Shown here: positions 18,037-28,424 of the stretch, piece after piece | Position numbering within the stretch: position 1 is the stretch's first letter | Layout of the letters: each line of letters starts with the position of its first letter | Source of the DNA: Pseudomonas sp. PDM18 | Lineage (GTDB): Bacteria; Pseudomonadota; Gammaproteobacteria; Pseudomonadales; Pseudomonadaceae | Assembly (NCBI RefSeq): GCF_014852585.1 | Contig: NZ_JACVBX010000006.1 | Location: forward strand, 62,001-126,000 | Reading direction: 5' to 3' | DNA length: 64,000 bases | The notes under the pieces: generated by a model | Databases searched by the model: none | Told to the model about the DNA's origin: nothing | The model's input: only the letters and a program-made list of their open reading frames with translations | Translations under genes and position numbers: made by a program

Positions 18037-19356
18037 ATGCTCAAACAAGGCGTACTTCGCTGGCCCCAGATCGCCGGGCTCGGTATTTCACTGGTTATCG
18101 CCGGGCAGTTCTCCGGCTGGAACTACGGCCTGGCCAGCAGCGGCTGGGCCAATATGCTCGTCGCCACGCTGCTCATGGCCGTGCTCTGCGGCGGCCTGGC
18201 GCTGTGCGTATGCGAACTCTCCACAGCACGCCCCCACGCCGGCGGCGTGTTTGCCTATGCGCAGTTGGCCTTCGGGCCTTTCGTCGGCTACCTGGTCGGC
18301 GCGGCCTGTGCGCTGGCGCTGACCATTGGCACCGGCGCGGCCGCCAACTTCCTCGCCGCGTATATGGAGTCGGTGTTCGGCTTCGGCGGCTGGCCGGTGC
18401 GCATCGGCCTGTTCGCGGCGATCATCGGCATCCACATCATCGGCGTCGGCGAGGCTCTTGGGCTAACCCTGCTGGCCGGTGCCGTGGCGGCCATCGCGCT
18501 GCTGGCCTTCGGCGGTGCCATGCTGCCCCACGTGCACTGGGAAAACCTGCTGCCCAGCGCCGGCAGCGCACTGCCGGACGTGAGCGTCGGCGGCGTATTT
18601 GCCTGCGTACCCTTCGCCATCTGGATGTTCATCTGCCTGGAGCAGGTCGCCTCCGCCGCCGAGGAAGCCGCCGAACCCGGCCGCAGCATGCCGCGCGGGA
18701 TCATCGCCGCCGTCGGCACCCTGCTGTTGACGGCGCTGACCGTGGTGATCAGCGCGCCGGGCGCCGCAGGGGTGGAAGTGGTCGGCAACGCGGGTGATCC
18801 GCTGTACGCCGCCATGACCCACGGTGGGCTCTACGGCGAGCGCGACTGGCTGCCGTTGCTGGTCGGCTCGGGCGCCGTGTGCGGCCTGCTGGCGACGTTC
18901 TTCTCGGTGGTGTTCTCCGCCTCCCGCCAACTATTTGCCCTGGCCCGTGACGGCTTCTTCCCCGCCGCGCTGGCCCGCACCAACCGCCGTGGCGCGCCCT
19001 ATGTCGCCCTGCTGGTGCTGACCGTGATCGGCCTGCCGCTGACCCTGGTGCCACCGGAAAAACTCCTGCTGTGCATCGTCCTGCTGCTGGGTAGCTGCCA
19101 TCTGGTGCTGTTCGCCGCCTACCTGCGCCTGCACCGCACCCAGCCCGGCCTGGTGCGCCCCTTCCGCCTGCGCGGCGGCCCGGTCGTGGCCAGCGTCGGC
19201 ATGCTGCTGACGCTGGTGGTGATCGCCGCCTGCTTCCAGCTGGAAGTGGCGATGCTCAGCGCCCTGGCCCTGGTGGTCGCCGCGCTGATCCTCAACTACC
19301 TGCTGCGCGCCGCATCCCGCGCCGGCAAGCCCCTGGAGAATGCCGAGAATGTCTGA
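18037..19356 (+). CDS. APC-family permease, ethanolamine-permease-like
   Basis: The 439-residue protein has about 12 membrane helices. The first helix region (LRWPQIAGLGISLVIAGQFS then GWNYGLASSGWANML) is characteristic of the ethanolamine/eat group of the APC superfamily, as are AGGVFAYAQLAFGPF and FCxLEQVASAAEEAAEPGR-like helix 6 sequence. It should take up a small amine or amino acid by proton symport. It overlaps by 8 nt the gene of a class III PLP enzyme, and a kinase gene follows, so the three form one operon. Ethanolamine or a similar amino alcohol is the likely substrate, inferred from the enzymes. Confidence 0.85.
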   Translation: MLKQGVLRWPQIAGLGISLVIAGQFSGWNYGLASSGWANMLVATLLMAVLCGGLALCVCELSTARPHAGGVFAYAQLAFGPFVGYLVGAACALALTIGTGAAANFLAAYMESVFGFGGWPVRIGLFAAIIGIHIIGVGEALGLTLLAGAVAAIALLAFGGAMLPHVHWENLLPSAGSALPDVSVGGVFACVPFAIWMFICLEQVASAAEEAAEPGRSMPRGIIAAVGTLLLTALTVVISAPGAAGVEVVGNAGDPLYAAMTHGGLYGERDWLPLLVGSGAVCGLLATFFSVVFSASRQLFALARDGFFPAALARTNRRGAPYVALLVLTVIGLPLTLVPPEKLLLCIVLLLGSCHLVLFAAYLRLHRTQPGLVRPFRLRGGPVVASVGMLLTLVVIAACFQLEVAMLSALALVVAALILNYLLRAASRAGKPLENAENV

Positions 19357-20623
19357 AGCAACCCTGCTGCAACGCCGCCATCAGGTCATGGGCGATGCCT
19401 CGCCGCTGTTCTACGACGAACCGCTGGAGCTGGTGAAAGGCGAAGGCGTCTGGCTCATCGATGCCGCCGGCAAGCGCTACCTGGACTGCTACAACAACGT
19501 GCCCTGCGTCGGCCATTGCCACCCGAAGGTGGTGGCGGCCATGGCCGAACAGGCGGCGACGCTGAACATCCACACCCGCTACCTCAACGAGCGCGTGGTG
19601 CGCTACGCCGAGAACCTCACCGCGACCTTCGCAGGGCCCCTGGACAGCCTGATGTTCACCTGCACCGGCAGCGAGGCCAACGAGCTGGCCCTGCGCATGG
19701 CGCGCTTCGCCACCGGCCACAAGGGCGTGATCGTCAGCGACTACAACTACCACGGCAACACCACCACGCTGGCGGCGGTGACCACCGCACTGCCCAGCTC
19801 CGAGCCGTTCTCGGCCCATGCGCGGGCCGTGCCGATACCCTGCCTGTACCACGCGGACGGCGCACCCGAGCAGGTCGCCGAGCGCTACGTGGCCAAGGTC
19901 GCCGAGGCCATCGCCGAACTGCAGGCGGCCGGCGTCGGCCTGGCGGCCATGCTGATCGACACCCTGTTCGCCAACGAAGGCATCCCGCGCCTGCCGGCCG
20001 GCTACCTGGAGCGCGTGGCGAAGCTGGTGCGCGAGGCCGGCGGCCTGCTGATCACCGACGAGGTGCAATCGGGCTTCGCCCGCACCGGCGACCATATGTG
20101 GGGCCACCAGTCGCACCCGCTGGTGCCGGACATCGTCACCCTCGGCAAGCCCATGGGCAACGGCTTCCCCCTGGCGGGTGTGGTGACCAACCGCGAGCGC
20201 GTCGAGACCTTCGGCCGCAGCAATATGTACTTCAACACCTTCGGCGGCTCGCCGGTGGCCGCGGCCGTCGGCCAGGCGGTGCTGGACGTGATCGCCGAAC
20301 AGGATCTGCAAGGCAACGCCCGGCGCCAGGGCGCGCAGCTCAGCGCCGAGCTGCACCGCCTCGCCGAGCGCCATTCGATCATCGGTGACGTGCGCGGCCA
20401 GGGCCTGTTCTTCGCCGTGGAACTGGTGCGCGACCGTGCCAGCCGCGAGCCGGCCGGCCTGGAAGCGCGGCGCATCGTCAACAGCATGCGCCAGCGTGGC
20501 GTGCTGATCAGCAAGATCGGCGGCGCCGACAACATCCTCAAGATCCGCCCGCCGCTGGTGTTCGAGGCCGAGCACGGCGAGCTGTTCATCGACACCCTGG
20601 ACCAGGTCCTGAGCGAACTCTGA
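19349..20623 (+). CDS. Class III PLP enzyme, amino-alcohol-phosphate phospho-lyase type
   Basis: The 424-residue protein has a fold-type I, class III aminotransferase sequence: CTGSEANELALRMARFATG at 105-123, ITDEVQSGFARTGDHMWG with Asp237, and the PLP lysine Lys267 in TLGKPMGNGFPLAGVV. Compared from memory with human ETNPPL (AGXT2L1) it shares many unusual blocks: YLDCYNNVPCVGHCHP, LNIHTRYLN, YFNTFGGSPVAAAVGQAVLD, EQDLQGNARR and ILKIRPPLVF. That subfamily eliminates phosphate from O-phosphoethanolamine or phosphohydroxylysine instead of transaminating. A kinase gene 9 nt downstream would make the phospho-substrate, which supports lyase activity. A plain aminotransferase remains possible. Confidence 0.82.
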   Translation: MSEATLLQRRHQVMGDASPLFYDEPLELVKGEGVWLIDAAGKRYLDCYNNVPCVGHCHPKVVAAMAEQAATLNIHTRYLNERVVRYAENLTATFAGPLDSLMFTCTGSEANELALRMARFATGHKGVIVSDYNYHGNTTTLAAVTTALPSSEPFSAHARAVPIPCLYHADGAPEQVAERYVAKVAEAIAELQAAGVGLAAMLIDTLFANEGIPRLPAGYLERVAKLVREAGGLLITDEVQSGFARTGDHMWGHQSHPLVPDIVTLGKPMGNGFPLAGVVTNRERVETFGRSNMYFNTFGGSPVAAAVGQAVLDVIAEQDLQGNARRQGAQLSAELHRLAERHSIIGDVRGQGLFFAVELVRDRASREPAGLEARRIVNSMRQRGVLISKIGGADNILKIRPPLVFEAEHGELFIDTLDQVLSEL

Positions 20624-20632
20624 GGAGCCACC

Positions 20633-21667
20633 ATGAACGACTTTTCCAAGGCTTGTTTCGCAGAGCTCGATCACGACCAGCAGATCGCCTGCCTGCGCGA
20701 CCTTGCGCTGGACGCCCTGCGCCACTGGGACGGCGATTTCGTCGGCCTGGAACTGCTCAAGTACCGCGAGAACGCGGTGTTCTGCGCCACCCGCAGCGAC
20801 GGAACCCGCAGCGCCCTGCGCGTGCACCGCGGCGGCTACCACAGCGAGGCGGCGCTGCGTTCAGAGCTGACCTGGATGGAGCAACTGGCCGCCGGCGGCA
20901 TCGGCGTACCGAGCATCATCCGCACCCGCAGCGGCGAACACCTGGCGGAGGTGCGCAGCGCCGCCCTGGAGGAATCGCGCTTCGTCGACATGCTCGGCTG
21001 GCTGTCCGGCAGCACTTTGGGCTCTGCCGAACAGGGCCTGAGCGCCGATGGCGACATCGAGGCGCTGTTCCATCAGGCCGGCGCGGTGGCTGCGCGCATC
21101 CACCTGAATTCAGCCCAGTGGCGCCAGCCCAACGAATTCACCCGGCACGCCTGGGACGAGGAAGGCCTTGTCGGCGCCAACCCGTTCTGGGGGCGATTCT
21201 GGGAGCTGGACCTGCTCAGCGATGGGCAACGCGAGCTTCTGCAGAGAGCTCGACAGGAAGCCCGCCTCGACCTGCGCCGCTACGGCCGCAACCTGGGCAA
21301 CTTCGGTATGATCCACGCCGACCTGGTGCCGGAGAACCTGCTGCTCGAAGGCGGCGAACTGCAGCTGATCGACTTCGACGATGCCGGCTTCGGCTGGCAC
21401 ATGTTCGAGCTGGCCACCGCGCTGTACTTCTGCCTGGACGACCCGCGCCTGGCGCAGATTCAGACGGTGCTGCTGGCCGGCTACGACTCGGTCAAGCTAC
21501 TGTCCGAAGCCGACCGCGCCGCGCTGCCGCTGTTCCTTGCCCTGCGCGGCACCACCTACCTGGGCTGGGTGCATACCCGACGTAACAGCGAAACCGCCCG
21601 GGAACTGGCGCCCATGCTGATCGAGCGCGCCTGTACACTCGCCGCCGCCTACCTCGCCGGCCGCTGA
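20633..21667 (+). CDS. APH-family kinase, probable amino-alcohol kinase
   Basis: The 344-residue protein has an excellent GAGGAG ribosome site 9 nt after the lyase gene. The catalytic Brenner motif is H228-A-D230-LVPEN235 and the magnesium motif is D247-F-D249; GENAVF/SALRVHR near 48-65 corresponds to the nucleotide-binding strand and lysine-equivalent region. This aminoglycoside-phosphotransferase/choline-kinase fold phosphorylates hydroxyl groups on small amines (homoserine, choline, ethanolamine, hydroxylysine). Placement next to a phospho-lyase and an amine permease suggests it phosphorylates the imported amino alcohol. A 13-bp perfect hairpin ends the operon. Confidence 0.83.
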   Translation: MNDFSKACFAELDHDQQIACLRDLALDALRHWDGDFVGLELLKYRENAVFCATRSDGTRSALRVHRGGYHSEAALRSELTWMEQLAAGGIGVPSIIRTRSGEHLAEVRSAALEESRFVDMLGWLSGSTLGSAEQGLSADGDIEALFHQAGAVAARIHLNSAQWRQPNEFTRHAWDEEGLVGANPFWGRFWELDLLSDGQRELLQRARQEARLDLRRYGRNLGNFGMIHADLVPENLLLEGGELQLIDFDDAGFGWHMFELATALYFCLDDPRLAQIQTVLLAGYDSVKLLSEADRAALPLFLALRGTTYLGWVHTRRNSETARELAPMLIERACTLAAAYLAGR

Positions 21668-21690
21668 AACTGGCAGAGCGCCGCAACACC

Positions 21691-21720
21691 CTGGCGCGCA
21701 GGCACAAGCCTGCGCGCCAG
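21691..21720 (+). terminator. Strong hairpin after kinase gene
   Basis: CTGGCGCGCAGGC and GCCTGCGCGCCAG form a perfect 13-bp stem with an ACAA loop, 24 nt after the kinase stop and 40 nt before the AraC start. No T-run follows, so it may reduce, not abolish, read-through into the regulator gene. Confidence 0.6.
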
Positions 21721-21759
21721 CACTGACCGATACTCGGCCTACAACCGAGGTGAACCGCA

Positions 21760-22707
21760 ATGACCGGCATCGCCCGCCACCAGGCAACCGACTCCGATGA
21801 ACTGGCCTGCGCCCTCGCCGGCTGGAGCCAGGACTACACCCAGCTCGGCCACGGCCGCCTGCAGGCGGAGCTGCTGCATGTGCAGCTGCCCGACGCCTCG
21901 CTGATCTACGAACACTCCAATCTACACCTGCACGAGAACATGGCGCCGCCCGCCGGCCACCTGGTGATCGGCATCCCGCTGAGTGCCAGTGCCGATTCGC
22001 GCTTCAACGGCCAGGCCCTGCACGACGACACCCTGCTGGTGCTCGAAGGCGGACGCGAGCTGGAAATCTGCGCCGCCGGGGAAATCCACATGCTCGGCCT
22101 GACCTTCAGCCAGCCACAGCTGGAACGCCTGCTCGGCGCCGAGGAACGCGAGCTGTTCGAGCGCGCGCTGCAGCAACGACGCCTGGAGCTTTCGCCTACC
22201 GGCGCCGGCGGCCTGCGCCGCAGCCTGTGCGACGCCCTCGCCGCCTTCGAAGGTGAGCCGTGGCGGGTGGACGACCCGCAACAGGCCGGGCACGCCGTGG
22301 CGCTGGTGCTCAGTCATGTGCTGCAGGCGCTGGAAGAAATCCTCCCTGGCAATGACCGCGAAGGCGCGCCACGCTCACTGCAGCAGCATCGCCGCCTGGT
22401 GCTGGCGGCCATCGAACGCATGCAGGCGGACCTCTCCGAGCCGCTGTCGCTGCTGGAACTGAGCCAGAGCCTGAACACCAGCCAGCGCACTTTGCAGTAC
22501 TGCTTCCGGCAAATTTGCCAGAGCACACCGCAGCAGTTCTTCCTCAGCCTGCGCCTGGCCGAGGCGCGCCGCCGGCTCAAGCAGGAGCCGCAGCAGAGCA
22601 TCACGCACCTGGCGCTGGACCTGGGGTTTGCCAGTTCCAGTCATTTCTCGGCGCTCTACAAGCGCCTGTACGCCGAACAACCGTCATTGATCTCGCGCTC
22701 GCGCTGA
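21760..22707 (+). CDS. AraC-family transcriptional regulator (EutR-like)
   Basis: The 315-residue regulator carries two C-terminal helix-turn-helix units (LSLLELSQSLNTSQRTLQYC and ITHLALDLGFASSSHFSALYKRLY), with the AraC signature in the second. The N-terminal 200 residues form an effector domain without a cupin signature I can name; the arrangement resembles EutR, the ethanolamine regulator of enterobacteria. Co-directional placement right after permease-lyase-kinase suggests it activates that operon, perhaps together with the barrel and chemoreceptor genes downstream. Confidence 0.88.
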   Translation: MTGIARHQATDSDELACALAGWSQDYTQLGHGRLQAELLHVQLPDASLIYEHSNLHLHENMAPPAGHLVIGIPLSASADSRFNGQALHDDTLLVLEGGRELEICAAGEIHMLGLTFSQPQLERLLGAEERELFERALQQRRLELSPTGAGGLRRSLCDALAAFEGEPWRVDDPQQAGHAVALVLSHVLQALEEILPGNDREGAPRSLQQHRRLVLAAIERMQADLSEPLSLLELSQSLNTSQRTLQYCFRQICQSTPQQFFLSLRLAEARRRLKQEPQQSITHLALDLGFASSSHFSALYKRLYAEQPSLISRSR

Positions 22708-22719
22708 TCGGCGCCACCT

Positions 22720-22812
22720 GTAGGAGCGAGCTTGCTCGCGAACAAACTCACCGGCAGCTCCCGCGTCAAGCGGGTTCGCGAGCAAGAGCTAGGCGCCCCC
22801 CTCGCTCCTACA
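22720..22812. repeat. REP pair with variant right arm
   Basis: The left unit is a full consensus REP (TGTAGGAGCGAGCTTGCTCG...). The right unit begins as usual (TTCGCGAGCAAGAG) but continues CTAGGCGCCCCCCTCGCTCC before TACA, a longer variant arm that recurs at 49223-49305 and 63147-63240. It lies between the AraC gene and the outer-membrane barrel gene. Confidence 0.85.
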
Positions 22813-22948
22813 AAAGCACTATCGCCCGATCTGGCAACCACACCCAATCACTTGGCAGACAGGAGCAACGGCACAGGGCCAGCCCTTACTTAGCATCGGC
22901 AGAAGTCACATCCCCTCAATCGACAATAACGAAACGGATGCCTTCACC

Positions 22949-24286
22949 ATGACCCACGCCGCCGTGCTGCGCCCCACCCTGCTCGCCCTGCTCATCGCCG
23001 GGGCCAGTTCCGCCAGCGCCTACCAGCTGTACGCGACCGACGACACGCACCTGAACGCCGACCTCTCGGCGACCTTCGGGCTGTTCCACAGCCAGGAACG
23101 CTACAACATGACCGGCACCCTGGATGAAGGCTCGTCCTCCTGGCAGGAAGGTTTCATCAAGTACGGTCTGAGCGGCGACCAGAAGCTGGGCGGCGCGGGC
23201 ACCGCCTACGGCGCCTTCAACCTGCTCAGTTCCGGCACCTGGGGCGATGGCGATGCCGCGGGCTTCAGCGACGGTTCCGAGCGCACCACCAAGATCGAGG
23301 ACGCCTACGCCGGCTGGCGTTCGGCCGGGCTGTTCCCGGTGCTGGGCGAGGATGGCATCGACCTGTCCTTCGGCCGCCAGAACATCGTGGTCGGCGATGG
23401 CTTTCTGATCGACGGCGATGCTCTGAATATGGGCAAGGGCCTGGCCGACGGCGAATACAACCGCGGCGGCGCCTACTATCTGGCGGCGCGTCGCGACTTC
23501 GACGAAACCGCCGTGCTGCGCATCGGCGGCAAGGAAGGCTGGCGCGGCGACCTGATGCGCCTGAAATCGGACAACCGCGCCCAGGCCAACTCCGAGCTGT
23601 ACGTGGCAACCCTCGAACACGTCGCCCCGGAAGCCACCTTCGGCCTGACCTACATCGACGTCACCGATGTGGACGAGCGCTACGCCTCGCCCATCCAGCT
23701 CGACCGCAAGGATATGAAGACCTACAGCCTGCGCGGCACCGGCAACGCCGGCGTGGAGAACCTGTTCCTCTCCGGCGAGTACGCCTGGCAGGACAAGCGC
23801 GATGCCCAGTACACCGACGACACCGCCAACGCCTGGTACCTGGAGGCCGGCTGGACATTCTCCGACGTCACCTGGAAGCCCTATATCAGCTACCGCTTCA
23901 GCCGCTTCTCCGAAGGCTACGACACCCTCTTCTACGGCTTCAGCCGTGGCTTCGGCACCTGGTTCCAGGGCGAGGTGGCGGGCAACTACTCCGGCCCGTT
24001 CAACAACAACACCCGCGTACACAACGTCGGCGCCAAGATCACCCCGCTGGAGAACCTTTCCATCGGCGCGCAGTTCTTCGACTTCCACACCCTGGACACC
24101 GACCTGGGCAACACCGATGGCCGCGAGCTGGACCTCTACGCCGAATGGGCGATCAACGAGCACCTGGTGATCATCCCGCTGGTGGGCCTGTACCAGCCGA
24201 AGAAAAGCGCAGCCGAAGGCGGCACTCAGATCGGCAACGACAACAGCAACCTCTACAGCCAGTTGCTGTTCTCCACCACGTTCTGA
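22949..24286 (+). CDS. Outer-membrane beta-barrel porin (alginate-export/OprD-like size)
   Basis: The 445-residue protein has a signal peptide (LLALLIAGASSASA) and then alternating amphipathic strands rich in aromatic and acidic residues (YGAFNLLSSGTWGDG, WKPYISYRFSRFSEGYDTLF, GREILDLYAEWA-like) ending in a terminal phenylalanine (LLFSTTF), the outer-membrane insertion signal. Length and the internal block FGRQNIVVGDGFLIDGDALN recall the alginate-export family of 18-stranded barrels more than OprD, but I cannot decide firmly. Beside an uptake and catabolic operon and a chemoreceptor, it is probably the substrate entry channel. Confidence 0.8.
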   Translation: MTHAAVLRPTLLALLIAGASSASAYQLYATDDTHLNADLSATFGLFHSQERYNMTGTLDEGSSSWQEGFIKYGLSGDQKLGGAGTAYGAFNLLSSGTWGDGDAAGFSDGSERTTKIEDAYAGWRSAGLFPVLGEDGIDLSFGRQNIVVGDGFLIDGDALNMGKGLADGEYNRGGAYYLAARRDFDETAVLRIGGKEGWRGDLMRLKSDNRAQANSELYVATLEHVAPEATFGLTYIDVTDVDERYASPIQLDRKDMKTYSLRGTGNAGVENLFLSGEYAWQDKRDAQYTDDTANAWYLEAGWTFSDVTWKPYISYRFSRFSEGYDTLFYGFSRGFGTWFQGEVAGNYSGPFNNNTRVHNVGAKITPLENLSIGAQFFDFHTLDTDLGNTDGRELDLYAEWAINEHLVIIPLVGLYQPKKSAAEGGTQIGNDNSNLYSQLLFSTTF

Positions 24287-24318
24287 TCCAGGGATTCGAA
24301 GCATAAGGAAAGCCCGCC

Positions 24319-26442
24319 ATGCCCAGCCTCCTGACGTCCATCCAGGGCCGTATCACCTGGCTGGCGGGCCTCTGCCTGATCCTCGTCGCCAGCGTCCTGA
24401 TCGGTCTTTCGCTGTACCAGGCGCGGCAGGACAGTCGCACCATCCAGCACGACAGCGGCGAACTCTTCGCCGTTGCCGCGCGGCACAATCTGGAAACCCA
24501 GGGCCAGGTCCAGGCCCTGCTGATCCGCGAGCGCCTGCAGAACAACCTGCTGCTCGGTGAAGGCCTGCTGCGCACCGTGCAGACCCTGCGCGCACAACAG
24601 CATCAGGGCGTCCTCGACGCCGCGGCCCTGCGCTCCGCGCTCAACCAGGCGATGGCCGAAACCCTCGGCGCGCACCCGGAGCTGCTTGGCCTGTTCCTGG
24701 TGTTCCAGCCCGATACTCTGGATGCCGCCGACAGCCAGTTCGTAGCCCGCGAAGATCTGGGCAGCAACGAGACCGGCCGCTTCGCCCTCTACCTGCTGCA
24801 GAACGGCGGGCAAACCCAGCGGGTAATCGGCACCGAGCAGGTCCTCGGCGACATCACGCCCGGCCCCAGCGGCCAGCCCTACAACGCCTTCTTCACCTGC
24901 TCCACCGGGCATGCCCGCCCCTGCGTGCTCGACCCGTATTTCGACGACGCCTCGGGGCAGCGCCGGTTGGTCACCAGCGTTACCCTGCCGCTGCTGGAGA
25001 ACGGCAAGGCCATCGCCGCCGTGGGCTTTGACATCGACCTCGCGGCCCTGCAACAAAGCAGCGCTGACGGGAGCCGCAGCCTGTTCGACGGCCAGGGTCG
25101 CATCCGCATCCTCAGCCCCAACGGCCTGATCGCCAGCGACAGTGGCGACGCCTCGAAGCTGGGGCAGAAATTCGAAGACAAAACCGTGTTCGAGGAAATC
25201 GCCGCCGGACGCTCGCAGTCCTTTGAGGACGGTGAATCCATCAGCGTGCTGCACAGCCTCGCCCCGGTGCCGGACGCCGCGCCCTGGGGCATCCTGCTCA
25301 GCGTGCCGCGCGCGGTGATGCTCGCCCCGGCTGAACGCCTCAAGGGCACGCTGGACGACCTGCGCTGGAAAAGCACTGCGCTGGAAACCGGCGTCGGCAT
25401 CGCCACCGGGCTGCTCGGCATGCTGCTGGTGGCGCTCACCGCGCTCGGCATCAGCCGGCCGATCCTGCGTCTGGCGCGGATGCTGGAAGACATTGCCGAC
25501 GGCGAAGGCGACCTCACCCGCCGCCTTGATTACCCGCGCCGCGACGAACTGGGCCGCCTGGCCACCGCCTTCAACCGCTTTCTCGACAAACTTCAGCCGA
25601 GCATCGCCGCCGTGCAGTCGGCGTCCCGCGAGGCACACTCCACCGCCGACCGCTCGGCGCAGATCGCCCGTCAGACCAGCGACGGCATGCAGCAACAGTT
25701 CCGCGAGATCGACATGGTCGCCACGGCGCTCCAGGAGATGTCCGCCACCGCCCAGGACTCGGCCCGCAGCGCCGCCCGCGCCGCCGACGCCGCACGCACC
25801 GCAGAGCAGGCCTGCGACGATGGCTTCCGCACGCTCAACGCCACCAACAGCGGCATCGACCTGCTCGCCGCCGGGATGAACCAGGCCATGACGGAGTTGC
25901 AGCAACTGGCGGCGAGCAACGAGCAGATCGGCTCGATCCTCGAAGTCATCTGCGGCATCGCCGCGCAGACCAACCTGCTGGCCCTCAACGCCGCCATCGA
26001 AGCGGCGCGCGCGGGCGACGCCGGGCGCGGCTTCGCTGTGGTCGCCGACGAAGTACGCGGGCTGGCCCGGCGCACCCAGGAATCGGTGGAAGAGATTCGC
26101 GAGGTGATCGAAAACCTGCAGGCGCGCGGTCAGTCAGTGACCAGCGCGATGCAAGGCAGCTTCACCCAGGCCCAGGGCAACGTCGATCAGGCGCGCCAAG
26201 CCATCGACGCGCTGCGCCGGATCGGCGAGGCGGTGAACCTGATCAGCGAAATGAACCTGCAGATCGCCAGCGCGGCGGAGGAACAGAGCAGCGTCGCCGA
26301 GGAGATCAACCGCAACATCGCCGGCATCCGCGACGTCACCCAGACTATTTCCGATCAAGCGCAACAAGCCGCCAGCGCCAGTCGTTCACTGAACGACCTG
26401 GCCAGCCGGCAGCAGGGATTGGTGGAGCAGTTCCGCGCCTGA
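24319..26442 (+). CDS. Methyl-accepting chemotaxis protein with Cache ligand domain
   Basis: The 707-residue chemoreceptor has an N-terminal membrane helix (about 13-33), a periplasmic sensor of about 315 residues of the double-Cache type ([20 protein letters not shown] and [20 protein letters not shown] are Cache signatures), a second membrane helix near 355-378, a HAMP domain ([20 protein letters not shown]) and the signalling tip [20 protein letters not shown]. dCache receptors often bind amino acids and amines. It follows the porin gene by 32 nt, so taxis toward the compound used by the 18-24 kb cluster is a reasonable inference. Confidence 0.93.
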
Positions 26443-26946: not shown

Positions 26947-27909
26947 ATGAAACGCGTGGCTATGCTGCTGTTCCCCGGCGTGCAGGCGCTGGATGTTTCC
27001 GGGCCGCTGGACGTGTTCGCCGAGGCCAATGCCTTCGTCCCTGCCGGCCAGGGCTACCAGGTGGTAACCCTCGCCGCGCCGCCCTTCCCGCTGCGCGCCT
27101 CCAACGGCCAACTGCTTGGCGCCGACTTCAGTCTCGAACAGGGTGACAGCGCGGCTGACATCCTGCTGGTGCCGGGTGGGCCGCGATTGCCAGAAGAGTC
27201 ACCCGCACCCGAGTTGCTCGAGTGGTTACGCACGGCCTGTGCCATGGCGGCGCGTTACGGATCAATCTGCACCGGGGCCTTCCTGCTTGGTCATGCCGGG
27301 CTGCTCGACGGCAAGCGAGTGACGACGCACTGGAGCGACGCTCGTCGGCTTGCCGAGCTGTTCCCTCAGGCGCTGGTCGAGCCGGACCGGATTCATGTGC
27401 GCGATGGTGCATTGGTGACTTCGGCCGGCGTGACTGCCGGCATCGATCTGGCACTGGCCTTGGTCGCCGAGGACCATGGCGCGGCGGTGGCGCTGTCGGT
27501 GGCGAAACGGCTGCTGGTAGTAACGCAGCGTCAGGGCGGGCAATCGCAGTTCAGCCCCTTCCTACAGGCGCCGGCCGACGAAGGCTCACCGGTGGCGCGC
27601 ATCCAGCGCTACGTGCAGGAAAACCTCGAGCAGCCGCTGGGCGTGCCGCAACTGGCCGCCGAGGTGGCGATGAGCCCGCGCAGTTTCGCCCGCGTGTTCG
27701 TCCGCGAGGCGGGCGTGACGCCTGCGGAGTTCGTCCAGCGTGCCCGTATCGACGCCGCTCGCGGGTTGCTGGAAGGCAGCGATCTGGCGCTGAAAGTGAT
27801 CGCATGGCGCTGCGGCTTCGGCAGCGCCGCGCGCATGCGCCTGGTGTTCGCCCAGCGTCTGGGGGTGACGCCGACGCAGTATCGCGAACAGTTCCGCCGC
27901 GAGGGTTGA
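26947..27909 (+). CDS. GlxA-type regulator (DJ-1/PfpI domain plus AraC HTH)
   Basis: The 320-residue protein joins an N-terminal DJ-1/PfpI-like domain (VAMLLFPGVQALDVSGPLDV; CTGAFLLGHAGLLDGKRVTT with the nucleophile-position cysteine) to a C-terminal AraC helix-turn-helix (PQLAAEVAMSPRSFARVFVR, GFGSAARMRLVFAQRLGVTP). GlxA regulators such as GbdR, ArgR and CdhR in Pseudomonas sense amine or amino-acid catabolites. It is flanked by an unrelated DUF2790 gene and by convergent bkdR, so its targets are not apparent. The start codon is preceded by GGGAGGC. Confidence 0.92.
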   Translation: MKRVAMLLFPGVQALDVSGPLDVFAEANAFVPAGQGYQVVTLAAPPFPLRASNGQLLGADFSLEQGDSAADILLVPGGPRLPEESPAPELLEWLRTACAMAARYGSICTGAFLLGHAGLLDGKRVTTHWSDARRLAELFPQALVEPDRIHVRDGALVTSAGVTAGIDLALALVAEDHGAAVALSVAKRLLVVTQRQGGQSQFSPFLQAPADEGSPVARIQRYVQENLEQPLGVPQLAAEVAMSPRSFARVFVREAGVTPAEFVQRARIDAARGLLEGSDLALKVIAWRCGFGSAARMRLVFAQRLGVTPTQYREQFRREG

Positions 27910-27962: not shown

Positions 27963-28424
27963 TCAGATCGGCGGCGCCGAGCGCAGCATCACCGACTTCA
28001 GCGCGAAGGCCGACTTGATCCCCGCTACGCCGGGAATCTGCGTCAGCGTGTTGGTGAGGAACAGCTGGTACGCCGACAGGTCCTTCACCACCACCCGCAG
28101 CATGTAGTCGGCGTCGCCGGTCATCTGGAAGCAACTCATCACCTGCGGCGCCTGGACGATGCGTTCTTCGAACCGCGCGAGGTAGTCACCGGTCTGTTTT
28201 TCCAGGGACACCGAGACGAACACGCTCATGCCACCGGACAGGCGCTCCTCGTCCAGGCGCGCGAAGTAACCCTGGATGTAGTGCTCTTCCTCCAGGCGGC
28301 GGACCCGGCGCAGTGTCGGGGTCAGCGACAGGCCGATGTTCTGCGCGAGATCGCGCCAGGAGAGCCGGCCATCGTCGGCCAGGGCGCGAAGGATTTTCAG
28401 GTCGGTGCGGTCGAGATCGGCCAT
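27963..28424 (-). CDS. bkdR: Lrp/AsnC-family regulator BkdR
   Basis: The 153-residue protein has an N-terminal HTH (DRTDLKILRALADDGRLSWR; LAQNIGLSLTPTLRRVRRLE) and a C-terminal RAM ligand domain (QVMSCFQMTGDADYMLRVVV). It is divergent from the branched-chain keto acid dehydrogenase operon, exactly as BkdR is in P. putida, where it activates bkd transcription in response to L-branched-chain amino acids. The 272-bp intergenic region should contain its sites. Confidence 0.93.
   Translation of the reverse strand: MADLDRTDLKILRALADDGRLSWRDLAQNIGLSLTPTLRRVRRLEEEHYIQGYFARLDEERLSGGMSVFVSVSLEKQTGDYLARFEERIVQAPQVMSCFQMTGDADYMLRVVVKDLSAYQLFLTNTLTQIPGVAGIKSAFALKSVMLRSAPPI

Follow-up and report, generated by a model that had tools for sequence, protein, structure and literature searches.

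A conserved Pseudomonas gene block with a kinase and a phospho-lyase-type enzyme: a predicted module for the catabolism of aryl-ethanolamines

Work on amino-alcohol kinases acting together with phospho-lyases has reportedly been carried out in Erwinia and Pseudomonas, and octopamine and synephrine hydro-lyases are, to our knowledge, described in older work without genes. A metabolosome for 1-amino-2-propanol, called RMM, is named in PMC6787980, and PbfA, the (R)-1-hydroxy-2-aminoethylphosphonate ammonia-lyase, appears in PMC8154272 as a class III lyase and not a transaminase. The genes analysed here belong to a stretch of 64,000 nucleotides from Pseudomonas sp. PDM18 (contig NZ_JACVBX010000006.1, positions 62,001 to 126,000), hereafter the window. 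At positions 18037-26442 six open reading frames (ORFs), all on the plus strand, encode a permease, a pyridoxal phosphate (PLP)-dependent enzyme, a kinase, an AraC-family regulator, a predicted outer-membrane barrel and a chemoreceptor. Gene order, protein families, tree placement and neighbourhoods were computed for these genes. We consider it likely that these genes make up a peripheral module for the catabolism of a beta-hydroxylated aryl-ethylamine, which would be degraded by the kinase and then by the phospho-lyase.

The phospho-lyase and its kinase

The PLP-dependent enzyme (19340..20623, plus strand; Pfam Aminotran_3) has the class III fold and is predicted to be an aryl-ethanolamine-phosphate phospho-lyase. 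Its closest solved relatives are the phospholyase 5g4i (465.6 bits) and human ETNPPL, 6tor (347.6 bits), the next one scoring 192.5 bits. A quick tree was built from 52 rows, with 42 loci picked by the analyst and with six of the 11 further class III relatives that the same genome encodes. The enzyme grouped with 5g4i and 6tor and was parted from the six relatives by a branch with a support of 100, with long branches among these six aminotransferases. The enzyme and 5g4i shared one set of 34 rows (support 99) and one set of 15 rows (support 97), and 6tor branched apart from the bacterial rows (support 92). All 46 rows of the phospho-lyase side, and none of the six on the other side, had a gap of two residues with NN and, downstream of it, an FNT motif. 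The residue following NN on the phospho-lyase side was V in 45 rows and I in one, and the window enzyme carries NNVPCVGH and NTFGGSPV.

Judged by its sequence, the window enzyme is thus placed on the phospho-lyase side and not among the aminotransferases. An earlier note, made from the letters of the window, had called it a phospho-lyase type and had proposed a phylogeny as the check, with a position among true aminotransferases as the outcome that would speak against it; the tree placement with 6tor and 5g4i agrees with that assignment. The residues given there as Lys267 and Asp237 exist and are identical across all 52 rows, although their numbers are 270 and 240 in the longest ORF, 267 and 237 fitting a start at the fourth codon. 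PbfA as the identity of the enzyme was rejected, its 222.9 bits lying below the cut-off of 525. The NCBIfam model PRK06148 (1015 positions) hints at natural fusions of the two enzymes because it is matched by the PLP enzyme near its end and, weakly, by the kinase near its start, both below the cut-off.

A second pair of an APH-type kinase and a phospho-lyase-type PLP enzyme, the latter 56% identical to that of the window, was found in the same genome (L009:9650-12081, contig C13). Its neighbours, identified by eye, are a solute-binding protein, a GntR regulator, a short-chain dehydrogenase/reductase (SDR) and a CoA-transferase, and the annotated layout of a Pseudomonas mandelii JR-1 plasmid locus (L198) is similar. 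Relatives of 5g4i were also found on 39 Klebsiella plasmid records.

The kinase (20633..21667, plus strand; Pfam APH) has the APH fold and is predicted to phosphorylate an aryl-ethanolamine. Residues H228, D230, N235, D247 and D249 do not vary across the 20 rows of alignment A1, the window included; the pairs H228/D230 and D247/D249 stand where the earlier note had placed them. Homoserine kinase as its identity was rejected (53.5 bits against a cut-off of 271). Among solved structures 6ef6 comes nearest (160.8 bits; the next at 47 bits); its database title is aminoglycoside phosphotransferase, and we take it to be the kinase that serves (S)-1-amino-2-propanol in the RMM microcompartment of Mycobacterium.

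A quick kinase tree of 117 rows was rooted on 6ef6. It was sampled from the best 80 of a longer list together with genus, phylum and plasmid matches, L129 and L131 being left out as duplicates of L061 and L062. A branch with a support of 100 holds the window kinase, with 99 rows in total and without 6ef6, and 17 other loci (the outgroup) stay on the 6ef6 side. The filter applied picked out 38 columns that set the window-group kinases apart from those of the outgroup, including the catalytic-loop positions 232-234. In 85 of the 99 window-group loci, versus 7 of the 17 outgroup loci, a PLP gene shares the strand of the kinase gene and is no more than 400 bases away, which upholds the kinase as the partner of the PLP enzyme. 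In a genome of the same taxonomic order (L079:7484-13709), a permease gene, an outgroup-type kinase gene and a PLP gene are located directly ahead of EutB/EutC relatives.

Aromatic neighbourhoods and the predicted pathway

The surroundings of the kinase genes were scored with strict markers, comprising PaaA, PaaB, PaaC, PaaD, PaaE, PaaZ and PaaK, HpaB, HpaD, HpaE and HpaH, HpcB, two subunits of tryptophan tryptophylquinone (TTQ) amine dehydrogenase, tyramine oxidase and a StyD-like dehydrogenase. HpaF, HpaG, HpaI, HpcD and PaaX were excluded; weak or edge HpaF matches (L065, L162 and L163) would have raised the count of positive rows. At least one strict marker was found near the kinase gene in 34 of the 99 window-group loci, in none of the 17 outgroup loci and in none of 40 arbitrary 19-kb regions drawn from eight genomes, the loci being related to one another, those from plasmids longer and 18 of the 99 shorter than 14 kb. 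L058 was scored negative although PaaZ straddles its cut end. Seven loci had served as marker sources and were positive by construction (L084, L092, L098, L168, L169, L170 and L172). Leaving them out lowered the enrichment a little, to 27 of 92 loci (Fisher's test, kinship ignored: 0.006 against the outgroup and 2.6e-5 against the arbitrary regions). On the kinase tree the aromatic label needs 11 changes, at least seven of them forced by starred branches.

Several loci are clear examples. In Mesorhizobium AR07 the permease, PLP and kinase genes are followed by paaX, paaABCDE and paaZ. In Rhizobium BT03 the pair stands alongside hpaE, hpaD, hpaH and hpaI, and in a related locus (L131) HpaD, HpaE and HpaH exceed their cut-offs. 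A Sphingobium locus carries hpcB and hpcD, a Phyllobacterium locus a tyramine oxidase gene, and in locus L084 PaaZ and PaaE, both above cut-off, are encoded directly upstream of the permease, L085 and L086 being alike by tblastn. A TTQ dehydrogenase is encoded near the pair in Sphingomonas (L098), scoring 174.7 bits to aromatic amine dehydrogenase versus 155.6 bits to methylamine dehydrogenase. The solved phospholyase 5g4i matches at 100% over 419 residues a protein of plasmid pTC2 of Paenarthrobacter aurescens strain TC1 (AAur_pTC20101). A homoserine kinase, an amino acid permease, a phenylacetaldehyde dehydrogenase, HpaE, and putative HpaH and HpaI are annotated near its gene, and a copper amine oxidase further away. 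This enzyme, presumably the one named A1RDF1 and known for activity on O-phosphoethanolamine, sits in a 4-hydroxyphenylacetate cluster. Taken together, the neighbourhoods point to aromatic amines. In the Rhizobiales clusters (L172:6584-10640 and L131), genes for an IclR regulator, a Tm-1-like protein, a HAD hydrolase and a second class III aminotransferase adjoin the pair.

The downstream arylacetate route is predicted to be present in the genome that carries the window. PaaZ was identified above its cut-off on another contig (C22) and paaABCDE by tblastn, and the same contig encodes an aldehyde dehydrogenase 74% identical to a StyD-like enzyme (C22:437081-438577). The absence of an adjacent aldehyde dehydrogenase gene, pointed out in the earlier note, would therefore mean that the gene is distant rather than missing. 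TTQ amine dehydrogenase subunits elsewhere on C22 scored below their cut-offs. Within the genus, a kinase at least 85% identical was present in 15 of 25 genomes, two others carrying one at 34-35%. PaaZ was found in all 15 and in six of the other ten (p 0.017 if the genomes were independent, which they are not); it lay within 9 kb of the kinase gene in eight of the 15, on another contig in six and about 230 kb away in one.

The following route is proposed on the basis of established PLP chemistry. The chemoreceptor would draw the cell toward the amine, which the barrel and the permease would import. The kinase would transfer phosphate from ATP to the benzylic hydroxyl group of Ar-CH(OH)-CH2-NH2, turning the benzylic oxygen into a leaving group. 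The PLP enzyme would bind the primary amine as a Schiff base (aldimine) and eliminate phosphate, and hydrolysis of the resulting enamine would yield ammonia and the arylacetaldehyde, Ar-CH2-CHO. The StyD-like dehydrogenase would oxidise the aldehyde to arylacetate, to be degraded by the paa route (paaABCDE and paaZ on C22). The substrate in this strain is probably 2-amino-1-phenylethanol, the unsubstituted phenyl ring being the most likely one here because paa genes are present and no HpaD was found above cut-off in the genome; octopamine or noradrenaline would be the substrate in relatives with hpa/hpc genes.

Other genes and conservation of the block

The first gene of the block encodes an APC-family amine permease predicted to serve import (18037..19356, plus strand; Pfam AA_permease_2), and the fourth an AraC-family regulator (21760..22707, plus strand; Pfam HTH_18 and HTH_AraC), which occupies the same place in all seven same-genus loci described below. 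The best NCBIfam model of the permease is the ethanolamine permease TIGR00908 (315.3 bits, cut-off 381.75) and that of the regulator is EutR (105 bits, cut-off 319). The earlier description of an ethanolamine-type permease and an EutR-like regulator agrees with these best models, although both matches are below the cut-offs.

The fifth gene (22949..24286, plus strand) encodes an outer-membrane beta-barrel, a predicted porin; by sequence no Pfam, NCBIfam or solved relative was found. Its designation as a porin is a weak assignment because the mean predicted local distance difference test (pLDDT) of the model is 64 and the nearest solved structure, AlgE (4afk), was reached with a template modelling (TM) score of 0.58. 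The last gene (24319..26442, plus strand; Pfam MCPsignal and HAMP) encodes a methyl-accepting chemotaxis protein with a dCache-like sensor, predicted to be a biogenic-amine receptor. The model of the sensor (24409-25368; mean pLDDT 81.3) is nearest to the histamine receptor TlpQ (6fu4; TM 0.82-0.83, 41-42% identity) and then to the polyamine receptor McpU, a likeness that suits an amine as the predicted ligand.

The spacings between the six ORFs are, in order, -17, 9, 92, 241 and 32 bases, with the permease and PLP genes overlapping by 17 bases, and the genes are presumed to be co-expressed. The order and strand of all six were kept in the seven of seven same-genus loci around a kinase relative at least 85% identical, one of which (L058) has about 3.6 kb between the barrel and AraC genes. 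In the next ten loci (L088-L097) the permease, PLP and kinase genes stay together in all ten and the full set of six occurs in none. The six genes are a conserved block; the ORF calls agree with the positions given beforehand, and the claim of six genes on one strand stands. A promoter scan revealed no promoter-like site, and a terminator scan revealed four terminator-like sites against 4.7 expected. After the block come genes for a DJ-1/PfpI-AraC regulator (26947-27909) and an Lrp-type regulator (27963-28424), one or both of which hold the same place in L057, L084, L085 and L086. The PLP gene of L086 (10300-11601) and the chemoreceptor gene of L084 (4429-6627) each match over two overlapping ORFs, which indicates a frameshift or an assembly error.

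Alternative substrates and comparison with known systems

The earlier note had proposed a module for ethanolamine, 1-amino-2-propanol or hydroxylysine. Its predicted kinase/phospho-lyase chemistry is supported, but its substrate proposals are probably wrong. Degradation of 1-amino-2-propanol to propionaldehyde by the same chemistry, as in the RMM of Mycobacterium and Rhodococcus without the shell, would fit 6ef6 being the nearest solved kinase, if 6ef6 is the kinase we take it for, and a metabolosome for this compound is named in the literature, as mentioned above. The window kinase shares the motifs HADL and DFDD with 6ef6. However, the branch with a support of 100 parts its group from 6ef6 and its 17 relatives, the 38 differing columns reach into the catalytic loop, aromatic neighbours occur only on the window side of the branch, and no BMC shell protein (PF00936) was matched in the genome; this substrate is considered unlikely.

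The pair might instead serve another amino alcohol O-phosphate, such as that of 5-hydroxylysine or of an unrecognised aliphatic amine, the aromatic genes being hitch-hikers in catabolic islands. The loci from Caldilineaceae, which have other neighbours, and the 65 of the 99 group loci that show no strict marker would agree with this. Against it, the association recurs in Pseudomonas, sphingomonads and Rhizobiales and beside the Paenarthrobacter gene of 5g4i, and the arbitrary regions carry no markers, so we regard it as quite improbable.

Several observations nevertheless weigh against an aryl-ethanolamine as the substrate. Besides the 65 loci just mentioned, the search of the whole 64-kb window with the strict markers gave no match, beside the block included. 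The marker set was drawn from seven of the tested loci, the kinase sample holds only the best 80 of a longer list, and the control regions are mostly, in 36 cases of 40, drawn from six genomes of the genus to which the window belongs, unmatched to the other phyla and orders. Of five plasmid loci inspected among 30 listed, that of Pseudomonas MPC6 (L171) has neither a marker nor an adjoining PLP relative. The TTQ proteins of L098 are below the NCBIfam cut-off and only modestly closer to the aromatic type, the StyD-like protein is below its cut-off (677 versus 850), and ethanolamine models are the best matches of the permease and the regulator. At one locus of the outgroup (L059) the PLP enzyme falls together with the window type. 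The kinase of pTC2 is divergent and has a long branch; the rows closest to it belong to the window group, but no starred set of at most half of the rows contains it. If 5g4i does have the activity on O-phosphoethanolamine that we assume, the lyase may take small substrates. A neighbourhood is moreover an association and not a substrate, and the true connection could lie in amine oxidation within these islands.

A cobalamin-free route from ethanolamine to acetaldehyde, suggested by the best models of the permease and the regulator and by the presumed activity of 5g4i on O-phosphoethanolamine, is very unlikely, given the aromatic context of the relatives, the sub-cut-off scores of both proteins and, making the case stronger, a confirmed separate locus on contig C33, where the sole EutB match of the genome stands beside EutC, ExaC and an ethanolamine permease (614 bits), these three being above their cut-offs. 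None of the six block proteins matched EutB or EutC in Pfam or NCBIfam, in line with the earlier view that the block is distinct from the EutBC route. The AraC-type regulator beside the EutBC locus (L012:4275-5582) is above the cut-off for QhpR (299.4 versus 250), not for EutR.

Returning to aryl-ethanolamine catabolism, we favour, with somewhat less confidence than for the block itself, the broader view that the pair of a kinase and a PLP phospho-lyase is its widespread basis in Pseudomonadota and Actinomycetota, acting on 2-amino-1-phenylethanol, octopamine and noradrenaline, and that in Pseudomonas it has been combined with import and amine-chemotaxis genes of its own. On this view the phospholyase crystallised from Arthrobacter would be one such enzyme and not a dedicated phosphoethanolamine lyase. 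No report of such a kinase/phospho-lyase pathway was found in the open-access literature searched by titles and the beginnings of abstracts. If true, the proposal provides genes and a testable mechanism for the bacterial breakdown of octopamine- and noradrenaline-type amines, re-assigns the natural role of a crystallised phospholyase and unites chemotaxis toward a biogenic amine with its import and degradation in a single module.

Among the known systems, the EutBC route resembles the predicted one in converting an amino alcohol to an aldehyde and ammonia, and the window permease and AraC regulator resemble Eut models; it differs in that EutBC of this genome is encoded on another contig with its own permease and ExaC. 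The window PLP enzyme is like PbfA in being a class III lyase rather than a transaminase, and unlike it in scoring below the PbfA cut-off. With human ETNPPL it has in common the NN and FNT motifs and the side of the tree, although ETNPPL scores lower than 5g4i and lies outside the bacterial rows. A further parallel is 5g4i with its surroundings on pTC2: the PLP enzymes are both on the phospho-lyase side, and kinase and permease genes are nearby in both. There, however, the kinase gene is on the opposite strand and its product is divergent (36% identical to the window kinase and 32% to 6ef6), and the cluster holds hpa genes, which the block of the window lacks, its further genes being those for the AraC regulator, the barrel and the chemoreceptor.

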